Shown: piece by piece, positions 30,653 through 36,236 of the stretch
How the letters are laid out: the number at the start of each line of letters is the position of its first letter
How positions within the stretch are numbered: position 1 is the stretch's first letter
Assembly: GCA_018699935.1 (NCBI GenBank)
Contig: JABISF010000037.1
Span: forward strand, 1-64,000
Source: Flavobacteriaceae bacterium
Lineage (GTDB): Bacteria; Bacteroidota; Bacteroidia; Flavobacteriales; Flavobacteriaceae
Direction: 5' to 3'
Length of the DNA: 64,000 bases
Position numbers and translations under genes: made by a program
The notes under the pieces: model-generated
Told to the model about the DNA's origin: nothing
Seen by the model: only the letters and a program-made list of their open reading frames with translations
Database searches by the model: none

Positions 30653-30660
30653 TAATTTTG
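30653..30660 (+). promoter_or_regulatory. -7 element of the metal-cluster promoter
   Basis: TAATTTTG is a perfect TAnnTTTG. Unlike other genes of the window it is followed by a leader of about 90 nt before the ATG at 30753, with two GAGTA repeats (30698-30718 area), so a regulatory leader is possible. Confidence 0.55.
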
Positions 30661-30752: not shown

Positions 30753-31463
30753 ATGAACAAACAATACACCATTTCAGGAATGACTTGCGAAAAGTGCAAG
30801 CAATCCGTAGCAGAGCAATTGATTGCTATCGCTGAGGTTGATTCGGTGATTGTCAACTTAAAAGAGGGAACGGCCGATCTTCAATCGAAGAAAAAAATTA
30901 GCATTGAAAAACTTCAAGCGGGATTGGGAAAATCGTATCAAATTAGCGACCCTTTAGAGGGTTCAGGCAACTTCCCCCAAGTTTCCAAATGGAAACAATT
31001 AAAGCCCTTATTTTTAATTTTTGGGTATTTGATTGCTGCCACTTTGTATTTGCAACCTTCCGAGGGTGATATCGCCATGTTTATGCGTCATTTTATGGGT
31101 TTATTTTTTATCATTTTTAGTTTCTTCAAATTTTTGGACTACAAAGGATTTCCCGACTCTTTTGCCCGCTATGACCCCTTGGCAAAGAAAAGTAGAGCAT
31201 ATGCCTTTGCTTATCCTTTTATAGAAACGCTTTTGGGGATCGCTTTTCTGATGGAGTGGAGACTCCTCCAAAGTTTGATAGCCACGATTGTCATTTTATC
31301 ATTTACCACCTACGGAGTCATCAATGCTTTGATTCGCAAATCAAATATTGAATGCGCTTGTTTGGGAACCGCATTAAAACTTCCTATGACGGAAGCCACA
31401 TTGATCGAAAATAGTATTATGATTGTTATGGCAATCAGTATGTTGGCGGGTTATTTTATTTAA
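30753..31463 (+). CDS. HMA metal-binding domain fused to a MauE/DoxX-like membrane domain
   Basis: The 236-residue protein has a heavy-metal-associated domain at residues 1-65 with GMTCEKC (Cys12 and Cys15), the usual Cu(I)/Hg(II)-binding pair. A membrane part of four to five helices follows (about residues 85-235), resembling MauE-type redox-associated proteins, with a CACLG motif near residue 199. It is not a P-type ATPase: there is no DKTGT. It may pass metal or electrons across the inner membrane, but no activity can be assigned. It is the first gene of a four-gene cluster with a HYC_CC_PP protein, a TonB-dependent receptor and an exported HMA protein. Confidence 0.82.
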   Translation: MNKQYTISGMTCEKCKQSVAEQLIAIAEVDSVIVNLKEGTADLQSKKKISIEKLQAGLGKSYQISDPLEGSGNFPQVSKWKQLKPLFLIFGYLIAATLYLQPSEGDIAMFMRHFMGLFFIIFSFFKFLDYKGFPDSFARYDPLAKKSRAYAFAYPFIETLLGIAFLMEWRLLQSLIATIVILSFTTYGVINALIRKSNIECACLGTALKLPMTEATLIENSIMIVMAISMLAGYFI

Positions 31464-31481
31464 TAAACGTATCTTTGTAAA

Positions 31482-31904
31482 ATGAAAAGAAATTCTTTTA
31501 TCGCGCTCTTTCTCGCTTTTTTGTTCTTAGGGACAAAAATTGGAGTGGCTTTAAATGCTCATTTTTGCGGGGCGACGCTTGCTGAGATTTCTTTTGCACA
31601 CCATCCCAAAAAATGTGATATGGAGAACGATGCGATGGATCATTTGCCCAATGATCAGATGGAAGTCGTTCAAAAATCCTGTTGTTCAGACACGGTTCTT
31701 TTACTGCAAAATCAAGAGCCGCAAAAAGATTTTAAAGTTCCTACTTACACTACGAATATCGCTGCACTCGCAGTATTTATCCCCACGGACAAGAACAACA
31801 TAGGGGTAGGAAATCTTAATGTTGACTTCACACGGTGGATTCCCCCACCTCCAAAGAAACAATCCAATTACCTCCTTTACCATCAATTTATATTTTACGG
31901 TTAA
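31482..31904 (+). CDS. HYC_CC_PP-family small exported protein
   Basis: A 140-residue protein with an N-terminal hydrophobic segment (FIALFLAFLFLGTKIGVAL). It shows the three landmarks that name the family: a histidine-aromatic-cysteine motif (AHFCG, residues 26-30), a double cysteine (KSCCSD, near 65) and a proline run (WIPPPPKK, near 119). Histidine and methionine are frequent between them (HHPKKCDMENDAMDHL), which suggests soft-metal binding in the periplasm. A perfect -7-type TATCTTTG (31470-31477) ends only 5 nt before the ATG, so an internal, nearly leaderless transcript is possible. It lies 18 nt after the HMA-MauE gene. Confidence 0.82.
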   Translation: MKRNSFIALFLAFLFLGTKIGVALNAHFCGATLAEISFAHHPKKCDMENDAMDHLPNDQMEVVQKSCCSDTVLLLQNQEPQKDFKVPTYTTNIAALAVFIPTDKNNIGVGNLNVDFTRWIPPPPKKQSNYLLYHQFIFYG

Positions 31905-31952
31905 TACTGTTGCTTTCCCCTTAAAAGTAACATTAACCTTAATTTATAAATC

Positions 31953-34181
31953 ATGAAAAAATATATACTTTGCCTTTTATGGCCATGGGCTTCACTAGTT
32001 GCTCAAGAATCCATTCAAGGTATTATTCTTCTTCAAGAAGGCAGTGCTTCGGTGGCTGTTGAAGGCGCCAATGTCTATTGGGAAGGCACCGATGTGGGAA
32101 CCACTACCGATGCCACGGGCGCATTTCGAATAAATAAAACAAATAAAACCAATCAGCTAATTATTCGTTATTTGGGATTTATCACCGACACCCTCACCGT
32201 TGCTTCTGATGCAAAAATTACGCATTTTCTTACACCCGACTTAGGTTCAAATTTGGACGAAGTTACTGTGGTTCAAAGACGTAAAGCCATTCAAAAATCA
32301 TTTTTAAAAGCACAAAATATCTATACAGTCAACAGTACAGAATTGCTCAAAGCGGCTTGTTGTAATCTCTCTGAAAGTTTTGAAACCAATCCTTCCATAG
32401 ATGTCAACTTTTCCGATGCTATCACAGGCACCAAGCAAATCCGAATGTTGGGTTTGACCAGTCCCTATTTGATGATAACAGAGGAGAACATCCCGATGAT
32501 CCGTGGGGCTTCACAAGCCTATGGGTTGACCTTTATTCCGGGTACTTGGATAGAAAGCATTCAAATTACCAAAGGTGCAGGTAGTGTCGTAAATGGTTAT
32601 GAAAGTATTTCTGGACAGATCAATGCCGAATTGAAAAAACCTTTTTCCGATGTCCCCTTTTTTGCGAATCTATTTTCCAGTGTAAATGGAAGAAACGAAG
32701 TCAATCTCCATGGGAATGTTAAACTTTCTGACAAATGGAGCACGGGAATCTACGTTCACGGCAATCAGCGGACTCAGCGTTTCGATAAAAATCAAGACAA
32801 TTTTCTGGATCTTCCCCTGTCAAAGCAGTTGAACTTTTTTAATCGCTGGCAGTATACGAATCCTGAAAAAGGTTGGGTTAGTTTTTTGAGTTTCCGATGG
32901 ATGGAAGACCAAAAGCAATTAGGGATGATGGACTATCGCCCGGAACTCCACCGAAACAAACAGTCCGTTTGGGGCAGTGAAATCGACACCCAGCGTTTTG
33001 ATAGTTCGCTCAAAATCGGCTATGTATTTCCAGAGTTATCCTATCAAAGTTTTGGACTGCAAATGGCCTTTAGTCGCCACGATCAAAAGGCGTATTACGG
33101 CTATCGAAACTACAATATTGAACAGCAAAGCTTTTTTGCCAATTTGCTTTTCAACTCCATTATTGGAAATACGAAAAACAAATTTAAGTCCGGCATAAAC
33201 GTCACCCACGACCGCTATATTGAACAAGTCGATCAGTTGGATTTTAATCGCGTGGATTATGCCGTTGGAGGTTTCTTTGAATACAGTTATGACAGTTTAG
33301 AAGATTTTAGTTTAGTAACTGGACTTCGCCTGGATCATCACAATCGTTTGGGCACTTTTCTAACTCCACGGGTCCATTTGCGTTATTTGCCTGTTGAAAA
33401 AACCGTCGTTCGGGCTTCCTTAGGAAGTGGTCGAAAAAGTGCCAATCTCTTTGCTGAAAATCAAACGCTTTTTGGAACCAATCGCGAACTCGTGATTCGT
33501 CAAAACGGTGGGAGCATTTATGGCTTACGCCCAGAAAAAGCGTGGAATTATGGATTGAGTGTGCGCAGAACATTTTCTTTGGGATCACAGGAATTCGATT
33601 TTACCGCCGATTATTATGTCACCCGTTTTACAGACCGTGTTGTTGTTGATTGGGAAAAAGAAAGTCAAATTGCTTTTTATAATTTGGAGGGAAAAAGTCA
33701 AGCCAACAGCTTGCAATTGGAATTGGATTATAACCCTTCAAAAAATTGGAGTTTTCGTTTTGCCTATAAAAACGAGCAAGTAAAAACCGATTATGACCGC
33801 GGATATTTTCAAAATCCGCTGACGCCCAAACATCGTTTTTTTGGGAATATGGGATGGGAAAATGAACGCAATGAAAAAGGTGCTCAATGGCGATGGGATC
33901 TAACTTTTCACCAATTGGGCAAACAGCGACTGGTCGCTACTACCCGAGACCCACAGGGCAGTTTTGCACCTGCTTATGGCCTTTGGAATACTCAGTGGAC
34001 ACGCGCCTTTAATAAGCAATTGGAAGTTTATTCTGGGCTTGAAAACATTGGGAATTATAGACAAAATCGACCTATTATCGGTGCTGAAGACCCGTTTGGA
34101 ACCATTTTTGATGCCGCTCAAGTCTATGCCCCCATCTTTGGTAGAATGATTTATATGGGATTACGTTGGAACTTAAATTAA
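31953..34181 (+). CDS. TonB-dependent outer-membrane receptor of the metal cluster
   Basis: Energy-dependent outer-membrane importer. The 742-residue protein has a signal peptide (YILCLLWPWASLVAQ), a carboxypeptidase-regulatory-like domain (about residues 20-95, GTTTDATGAFRI), a plug domain (about 115-215) and a beta-barrel ending in MIYMGLRWNLN. The plug starts with a distinctive LLKAACCNLSESFETNPS segment carrying two adjacent cysteines, and later IPMIRGASQAYGLTFIPGTW and SGQINAELKKP. No SusD partner is adjacent, so a polysaccharide substrate is unlikely. The neighbours point to a metal ion or metal complex; which metal cannot be told. Confidence 0.92.
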   Translation: MKKYILCLLWPWASLVAQESIQGIILLQEGSASVAVEGANVYWEGTDVGTTTDATGAFRINKTNKTNQLIIRYLGFITDTLTVASDAKITHFLTPDLGSNLDEVTVVQRRKAIQKSFLKAQNIYTVNSTELLKAACCNLSESFETNPSIDVNFSDAITGTKQIRMLGLTSPYLMITEENIPMIRGASQAYGLTFIPGTWIESIQITKGAGSVVNGYESISGQINAELKKPFSDVPFFANLFSSVNGRNEVNLHGNVKLSDKWSTGIYVHGNQRTQRFDKNQDNFLDLPLSKQLNFFNRWQYTNPEKGWVSFLSFRWMEDQKQLGMMDYRPELHRNKQSVWGSEIDTQRFDSSLKIGYVFPELSYQSFGLQMAFSRHDQKAYYGYRNYNIEQQSFFANLLFNSIIGNTKNKFKSGINVTHDRYIEQVDQLDFNRVDYAVGGFFEYSYDSLEDFSLVTGLRLDHHNRLGTFLTPRVHLRYLPVEKTVVRASLGSGRKSANLFAENQTLFGTNRELVIRQNGGSIYGLRPEKAWNYGLSVRRTFSLGSQEFDFTADYYVTRFTDRVVVDWEKESQIAFYNLEGKSQANSLQLELDYNPSKNWSFRFAYKNEQVKTDYDRGYFQNPLTPKHRFFGNMGWENERNEKGAQWRWDLTFHQLGKQRLVATTRDPQGSFAPAYGLWNTQWTRAFNKQLEVYSGLENIGNYRQNRPIIGAEDPFGTIFDAAQVYAPIFGRMIYMGLRWNLN

Positions 34182-34192
34182 AATTACAAACT

Positions 34193-34543
34193 ATGAAAAA
34201 TTATTTTTATCTATTACTGCTTTGCCTTCCTATGGCATTGACCGCTCAAAAACAAAGTAAAGCGACCTCGGTGAGTTTTGAAGTCAACGGAAATTGTGAA
34301 CAATGCAAACATCGTATTGAAAAAGCGGGACTAGCGCTTAAAGGAGTGAAAATGATTCGATGGGAAATCCCAACGCATCAACTTTCTTTGATTTATGATC
34401 CCAACAAAGTGGAGCTTGATAAAATTCATAAGGCCATTGCGGCAATGGGTCATGACACCGATAGGTTTAAAGCCAAGGATTCGATATACAACAGCTTGCC
34501 CATGTGTTGTTTATACGATCGCTCCGAATCGGAGCTGCAGTAA
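34193..34543 (+). CDS. Exported heavy-metal-associated (HMA) domain protein
   Basis: A 116-residue periplasmic protein: signal peptide MKNYFYLLLLCLPMALTAQ, then one HMA fold with NGNCEQCKHRIEKA (CxxC) and the expected second half SLIYDPNKVELDKIHKAIAAMGHDTDRF. Two further cysteines follow in LPMCCLYD. It probably carries a soft metal in the periplasm between the receptor and the inner-membrane HMA-MauE protein. The ATG at 34193 is preferred to an in-frame start at 34166, which would overlap the receptor gene and spoil the signal peptide. A strong terminator follows directly. Confidence 0.9.
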   Translation: MKNYFYLLLLCLPMALTAQKQSKATSVSFEVNGNCEQCKHRIEKAGLALKGVKMIRWEIPTHQLSLIYDPNKVELDKIHKAIAAMGHDTDRFKAKDSIYNSLPMCCLYDRSESELQ

Positions 34544-34547
34544 AAAC

Positions 34548-34576
34548 AAAAACCCCGCCTAGGCGGGGTTTTTTTA
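34548..34576. terminator. Bidirectional terminator between the metal cluster and groEL
   Basis: AAAACCCCGCCT is followed directly by its inverse complement AGGCGGGGTTTT, with A and T runs on the two sides. The GC-rich stem can stop the plus-strand metal cluster (ends 34543) and the minus-strand groEL (ends 34596). Confidence 0.92.
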
Positions 34577-34595
34577 TGAATAGCTATTCACTATT

Positions 34596-36236
<1,641 letters not shown>

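Follow-up and report, generated by a model that had tools for sequence, protein, structure and literature searches.

The gene cluster and its conserved core

The window, the whole 64,000-nucleotide stretch analysed here, covers positions 1 to 64,000 of contig JABISF010000037.1 from a Flavobacteriaceae bacterium (assembly GCA_018699935.1; 2.17 Mb in 85 contigs, 87.9% complete) and carries four + strand genes which we propose to be a copper acquisition operon. The first open reading frame (ORF; 30753-31463) encodes HMA-MauE, an N-terminal HMA domain joined to a membrane domain and a candidate inner-membrane partner, in which the Pfam domains HMA (33.1 bits) and MauE (PF07291, 73.8 bits against a cut-off of 27) were both matched over cut-off. 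It is followed by an ORF of the HYC_CC_PP family (31482-31904; NCBIfam NF047658, 59.1 bits against a curated cut-off of 28), here called HYC and proposed to be a copper-sensing leader. A TonB-dependent receptor gene (31953-34181) was identified by Plug (32.5 bits) and CarbopepD_reg_2 (48.8 bits), both over cut-off; its product has a carboxypeptidase-like N-terminal domain and the plug motif KAACCNLSESFETN. The last gene (34193-34543) encodes a periplasmic HMA protein (Pfam HMA, 31.4 bits, over cut-off) with a signal-like N-terminus, a CxxC motif and a C-terminal CC. In the ORF list this gene begins at a TTG at 34166, and the ATG at 34193 yields a start resembling a signal peptide.

Each protein contains paired cysteines: MTCEKC and CACLG in HMA-MauE, HFC and CC (residues 67-68) in HYC, CC (136-137) in the receptor plug, and CEQC and CC (105-106) in the HMA protein. 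The four same-strand ORFs with paired cysteines and the strong terminator after them, as described in the first-pass annotation, were all found in place. The terminator hairpin (34548-34573) is common to the operon and a convergent groEL-like gene and is given no strand; the scan called it on the - strand, and T-runs stand on both flanks. Around it (34541-34600) weak, sub-threshold Rfam matches to amino-acid leaders and sRNAs were obtained, which are almost certainly chance.

A single promoter had also been claimed for the four genes, and this is not supported: a Bacteroidota-type promoter box, TATCTTTG (31470-31477, + strand), lies 12 bases 5' of the HYC start at a position conserved in the family. 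HMA-MauE has only a separate, weak candidate -7 box, TAATTTTG (30653-30660, + strand), a pattern match 100 bases 5' of its start. A sigma-70-type promoter scan was uninformative (20 sites vs 19.6 in shuffles).

To define the conserved unit, a receptor-family profile was used which found more than 587 relatives in genome contigs, and the best 80, all close relatives, were examined together with 60 further family-genome loci (56 with a receptor and no HMA-MauE in the genome, 4 with HMA-MauE elsewhere). Zobellia, Maribacter, Polaribacter and Formosa are among the genera represented. The closest receptor relatives among the matches listed were from metagenome-assembled genomes of marine Flavobacteriaceae, at 68% identity. 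HYC was present upstream of the receptor within 6 kb in 71 of the 80 and 48 of the 60 loci (119/140), and an HMA gene downstream in 78 and 59, respectively (137/140); the three HMA misses were contig ends with 49, 0 and 162 bases left. Upstream sequence at the 21 loci lacking HYC was shorter than 3 kb in 6 and at least 4.9 kb long in 15. The conserved unit is HYC, receptor and HMA protein, with HMA-MauE as an optional member. The four-gene unit proposed earlier was correct in that its genes are conserved together beyond chance, and too wide in its membership.

Co-occurrence across genomes had been set beforehand as the observation on which the cluster would stand or fall, and the cluster was not refuted by it. 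Among 199 family genomes, with the five best receptor candidates scored per genome, the receptor was found in 123, HMA-MauE in 88 and both in 67 (odds ratio 3.1, Fisher p 2.3e-4, a statistic which ignores kinship). The two genes were within 5 kb of each other in 52 of the 67 genomes, always on the same strand.

The plug motif A[A/S]CC[N/D] was found in 137 of 139 further receptors; one exception is a variant keeping ACC-N in an altered context, the other a gene truncated before the motif. Receptor residues C136 and C137 were invariant in 25/25 aligned sequences, and C35, C38, C105 and C106 of the HMA protein in 28/28. In a phylum sample the receptor family was present in 84 of 296 genomes (E 1e-100), and 40 of 61 loci outside the own family were fetched. 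All five receptors fetched from the lowest-scoring group, f37, were without CC and had no adjoining HYC or HMA gene. Every one of the 35 receptors from the other families had the plug CC; at these loci the HMA gene adjoined the receptor gene in 19 cases and formed a fusion with it in 3, and 26 had a HYC-like ORF, in some cases weak.

The three fusions (loci L311, L312 and L313, among the 40 from other families) carry HMA N-terminally, with two HMA units in L311 and L312 and one in L313, the latter with a His-rich linker. Each fused unit has its own CxxC and terminal CC and stands before the plug, on the periplasmic side. These natural fusions are the best evidence of a direct partnership between the HMA protein and the receptor. 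At two loci where the HMA gene was missing (L336:6211-6555 and L344:6241-6642) a small Cys-rich protein adjoined the CC receptor; it presumably resembles a YHS domain.

The assignment of the receptor to its class, whose members have a plug and a 22-strand barrel, is based on the Plug match over cut-off, the modelled barrel and Foldseek matches to PfeA, Cir, BtuB and OprC. A stretch resembling a DEV-type TonB box, LDEVTVV, precedes the plug. The barrel was well modelled, while plug pLDDT (predicted local distance difference test) values were below 50, so that the plug CC could not be placed in three dimensions. OprC of Pseudomonas aeruginosa has the same TonB-dependent receptor fold, although iron and B12 receptors score equally well or better. 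OprC uses CxxxM-HxM, according to the portion of the source available (PMC11213822), whereas the receptor described here has the CC of the first plug segment and the invariant H269.

HYC and the junction that follows it

The promoter-box pattern TAnnTTTG was found at positions -10 to -20 of 75 of 133 HYC genes (2.0 in shuffles), vs 5 of 138 receptor, 1 of 146 HMA and 0 of 69 HMA-MauE genes; when any start within the first 25 codons was allowed, it was found for 152 of 216 HYC genes vs 91 of 2632 other genes. A box 12 bases before the start implies that the HYC mRNA is leaderless. No common palindromic operator was found upstream of HYC.

HYC proteins have a signal-like N-terminus, a conserved HxC, a CC and a C-terminal PP, and are divergent in sequence, with a mean pairwise identity of 27% vs 46-54% for the partner proteins. 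The spacing of the motifs is conserved: CC to PP was 54-56 residues in 139 of 192 proteins and PP to the end 17-18 residues in 144 of 192. CC was absent from 3 of 215 proteins, and PP near the end from 20. The tail has the consensus Y-x-PP ... L-x-Q-x-FLI, ending in FYG in the clade of the window. A TGA stop was used by 146 of 216 HYC genes vs 259 of 2476 other genes, and in 204 of 207 cases the next gene had the same orientation.

At the junction of HYC with the receptor gene in the window, an RNA hairpin is predicted which extends from the last HYC codons and stop to the receptor start codon (31881-31955, + strand). Its minimum free energy was -19.2 kcal/mol (z -5.61), and 0 of 200 shuffles folded equally well. 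Mean z values were -2.65 for HYC-receptor junctions (60 of 81 sampled) and -3.88 for HYC-RND junctions (25 of 29); receptor-HMA junctions (40 of 111) averaged +0.35 and other gene pairs (70 of 359) -0.94. A predicted stop-to-start stem of at least 8 pairs was found at 163 of 196 HYC junctions vs 39 of 150 control pairs; a further 19 HYC genes were without a following gene in range. Stems of this size were present whether the next gene encoded a receptor (85/101), an RND protein (28/29), HMA-MauE (10/15), an ATPase (3/3), an HMA protein (18/24) or some other product (19/24).

Among the arms listed, sequences differ widely between loci and complementarity is kept. Arms from the same species paired at -12.3 kcal/mol vs -7.6 kcal/mol with arms of other species at receptor junctions (n=76), and at -14.1 vs -8.5 at RND junctions (n=29), with 0 of 1000 permutations as low in either set; the arm windows were picked beside the stop and start, so that the position of the stem there is partly by design. 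Rfam gave no match at the window junction up to E 1 and, in nine related loci, nothing at the gathering threshold except tRNAs. Two candidate elements were rejected. An intrinsic terminator after HYC would need a T-rich tail, which was found in only 10 of 81 junctions, and a C>G bubble, taken as a sign of a Rho site, was present at 88% of HYC ends vs 32% of controls, mostly owing to codon positions 1 and 2. Four HYC-RND junctions (L040, L042, L210 and L212) have a stem with two inner hairpins, forming a three-way junction with conserved loops and no Rfam match, and this element may represent a separate structured RNA.

Two known leaders offer a comparison. In the available parts of the published accounts, CruR of Bordetella is a DUF2946 protein with CxxC and RAPP near its end which heads the CrtA receptor operon (PMC9426467), CutF of Rhodobacter has a copper motif and a Pro-rich end with a stem-loop before cutO (PMC9973294), and translation of either leader places the next gene under copper control (PMC9426467, PMC9973294). 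To the extent covered by that text, HYC resembles the CruR-CrtA-CrpH system of Bordetella pertussis in being a small Cys-bearing leader with a C-terminal Pro-Pro before a copper TonB-dependent transporter, and in that leader families of the CruR type are found at the head of further copper operons (PMC9426467, PMC12914433). However, HYC has CC rather than CxxC, and a short gap with a stem where CruR has a 162-base gap and Rho termination. Members of the DUF2946 group carry CxxC or CxxxC and a Pro-rich arrest motif at the extreme C-terminus, to which the HxC, CC and PP of HYC correspond in kind only. CrtA is without conserved Cys or Met, whereas the receptor described here has an invariant CC, and its partner is an HMA protein instead of a PepSY_TM protein. 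With CutF of Rhodobacter capsulatus, as far as the available text describes it, HYC would share export, a copper motif, a Pro-rich C-terminus and a stem-loop that must open (PMC9973294). HYC differs from CutF in that the gene behind it encodes a receptor, an RND pump or another copper protein, and its stop-to-start stem takes in the stop codon of the leader.

No sequence homology was found between HYC and CruR or CutF, HYC matched no Pfam family at E<=1, and DUF2946 (PF11162) had matches in 0 of 199 family genomes. From its layout we propose with moderate confidence that HYC works like CruR and CutF, outside that family. In the literature outside subscription journals and preprints, we found no paper naming HYC_CC_PP or treating this receptor-HMA operon.

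HMA-MauE and copper P-type ATPases

The position of HMA-MauE varied. Of the best 80 loci, 5 share the arrangement of the window, with HMA-MauE ahead of HYC; 14 have it between HYC and the receptor, 8 after the HMA gene, and 2 next to a receptor that has no HYC. Instead of HMA-MauE, 7 of these 80 and 10 of the 60 further loci had a copper P-type ATPase, itself bearing an HMA domain, upstream of the receptor. No examined locus had both HMA-MauE and an ATPase upstream, and among the matches listed 10 genomes have an adjacent ATPase, 9 of them without HMA-MauE; mutual exclusion of the two is suggestive only. In the HMA-MauE tree, receptor linkage needed 10 changes, 2 of them forced by well supported branches; support was weak at 33 of the 71 inner branches.

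The copper P-type ATPase model had matches in 161 of 199 family genomes, 114 of them over cut-off. None was found in the own genome (assembled to 88%) or in a 98%-complete congener, and for this reason an ATPase-free copper route is plausible in this genus. The earlier statement that no P-type ATPase is involved thus stands for the cluster itself, the assembled 88% of the genome and the congener, but not for relatives, where ATPases occur in the corresponding loci. In the congener, HMA-MauE does not adjoin the receptor. The own genome (G000) and G250 belong to a genus with a heme-copper oxidase and without a copper P-type ATPase match, and many of the listed family genomes lacking such a match are small (1.3-2.2 Mb). 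In the own genome there was a single match for heme-copper oxidase, a single strong one for RND, and three of SCO1 type.

In 31 aligned HMA-MauE proteins MTCxxC, CACLG, M111, M115, M212, M223 and M226 were invariant; we take M111-x3-M115 to resemble the CTR1 motif. The AF2 model had a mean pLDDT of 88.1, with values below 50 in the CACLG loop. The model and the charge distribution suggest five helices with HMA and CACLG on the inside. The best solved match to the MauE part was NACHO/TMEM35A (Z 10.5 over 114 residues), a score too low to be meaningful for a helical bundle. The pairing of a periplasmic HMA protein with an HMA domain borne on a small membrane protein resembles MerT/MerP and MerTP; however, the membrane part is MauE, not MerT, and NCBIfam MerTP scored 30.9 bits vs a cut-off of 180.

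HMA-MauE genes not linked to a receptor were found in CusA/TolC/CusB-type loci, in modules of HYC, a barrel-like protein, HMA and NHL, or alone. The second of these module types comprises HYC, a barrel-like protein, an HMA protein of 120-216 aa, an NHL-repeat protein and HMA-MauE (L176, L177, L184, L188 and L189), and L058 has a copper ATPase where the others have HMA-MauE. In L182, L200, L202, L204 and L206 HMA-MauE stands alone beside groEL/groES-like genes, in a slot which, judged by gene sizes, resembles that of the window.

The metal, the proposed route and its alternatives

The metal was assessed from the neighbours of HYC. Within 8 kb of HYC the fetched loci contained the CC-type receptor cluster (27), an RND cluster (21), MbnP-like genes (6) and CopA-oxidase-like genes (6). 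Of the neighbour representatives scanned, CusA/CzcA (753.8 bits) and copper P-type ATPase (629.6 bits) scored over cut-off, while MbnP-like, MbnH-like and CopA-type multicopper oxidase representatives scored below their cut-offs. Copper is the most likely metal because HYC also stands before CusA-type efflux genes, and copper would fit all neighbours. An AraC-type regulator of about 195 aa (L041:14539-15138) recurs near copper genes; only its HTH part was matched, and its N-terminus resembles an HMA domain by eye.

We give a slightly better than even chance to the proposal that this is a copper acquisition operon with HYC as a copper switch. Copper, either free or as a chelate, would cross the outer membrane through the receptor, and the HMA protein, to judge from the fusions and its adjacency, would take copper on the periplasmic side. 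Copper might then go to heme-copper oxidase or to an inner-membrane partner, here HMA-MauE and elsewhere the copper P-type ATPase. HMA-MauE could move copper inward or outward, or keep cysteines reduced. HYC would be translated from a leaderless ORF and exported during synthesis, with HxC and CC sensing copper on the nascent chain. The behaviour of the ribosome at the tail, where PP lies 17-18 residues before the stop, would decide whether the stop-to-start stem opens and, through it, whether the operon is expressed; the metal, the copper sensing, the arrest and the direction of control are inferred, and gene order, conservation, fusions, motif spacing, the position of the box and the stem predictions were observed. 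Of the uptake or relay route for a soft metal, possibly copper, put forward in the first-pass annotation, the outline is supported by gene conservation, the HMA-receptor fusions and the copper genes that lie near members of the HYC and HMA-MauE families. HYC itself, which had been counted as a component of the route, is probably not merely a periplasmic relay, its layout being that of a regulatory leader ORF.

We have to acknowledge several observations which count against a switch. HYC is the first gene in only 105 of 207 cases by a crude upstream-gap test, and HMA-MauE stands upstream of it in the window; HYC was below threshold in 15 of 140 loci despite the upstream room of at least 4.9 kb; and outside the own family its promoter box was found in only 5 of 21 cases in the phylum set. 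HYC is without RAPP or RGPP, and 17-18 residues lie between its PP and the C-terminus compared with 3 in CruR. Pairing of the start-codon region was not above that of controls (47/68 vs 105/150), RNAalifold gave no consensus structure for a divergent 20-sequence junction alignment, and arm-swap controls, real terminators included, also beat 1000 permutations, with a far smaller gap (-8.1 vs -6.9). Most of the C>G excess at HYC 3' ends is due to amino acids, the third-position excess being 0.053 vs 0.003. Because the start-region control and the first-gene test were unsupportive, the switch was weighted slightly lower.

The most serious alternative, which we nevertheless regard as unlikely, is that HYC is an ordinary exported copper-binding protein and that the stem does no more than adjust mRNA stability or reduce translation of the gene behind it, with no sensing involved. 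This would suit the signal-like N-terminus, the conserved Cys and His and the company of copper genes. However, HYC stands before import and efflux genes alike, and the stop spacing, the TGA stops and the stop-to-start stem are hard to square with a periplasmic role alone; judged from sequence, five independent features (box, spacing, TGA, junction fold and arm matching) appear to argue against a plain relay role. Alternatively, the operon might serve as an envelope copper defence in which the proteins buffer periplasmic copper rather than take it up, as the HYC and HMA-MauE families also occur in Cus-type efflux loci. We give this little chance, since TonB-dependent receptors are importers and the receptor of the window has the TonB-box-like stretch LDEVTVV before its plug.

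It is equally improbable that the operon handles another soft metal (Ag, Hg, Zn or Cd) or several. HMA and CC motifs are not specific to copper, HMA-MauE and the HMA protein match MerTP weakly, and silver takes the Cus route too; but silver and mercury are not nutrients, and the families are linked to CusA/CzcA-type RND proteins, copper-type P-ATPases and multicopper-oxidase-like genes. A role for the receptor in importing an organic thiol or peptide, with redox-active cysteines and MauE as a redox partner for thiols, its role in the maturation of methylamine dehydrogenase, would account for the paired cysteines in every protein and for the MauE family, which is tied to disulfide formation. 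It would not explain the HMA-receptor fusions or the copper ATPases in the HMA-MauE slot, and is the most doubtful of the alternatives.

Copper acquisition remains the preferred reading, and this gene set probably brings copper into the cell across Bacteroidota. The system, flagged earlier as incompletely described, is a real and widely conserved copper-type uptake module. A broader proposal, that HYC proteins are nascent-chain copper sensors of import, efflux and copper enzymes throughout Bacteroidota, without sequence kinship to CruR or CutF, and also that HMA-MauE is a new ATP-independent inner-membrane copper carrier, bearing a CTR1-like MxxxM motif and replacing the P-type ATPase in small marine genomes, is put forward tentatively, at rather less than an even chance.

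According to the available part of the CrtA paper, how Gram-negative bacteria acquire copper is poorly understood (PMC12914433). In the portion available of a survey of RAPP/RGPP leader peptides, the copper-related ones are missing from Bacteroidota, and those of the TonB class are called universal in Gram-negatives (PMC12992588). If HYC is the missing sensor, a family of so far unassigned role would become a regulatory marker predicting copper control for thousands of operons. That a new sequence family acts as a nascent-chain copper switch is a specific claim which is cheap to test, and the import module offers a testable handle on how marine Bacteroidota supply their heme-copper oxidases.

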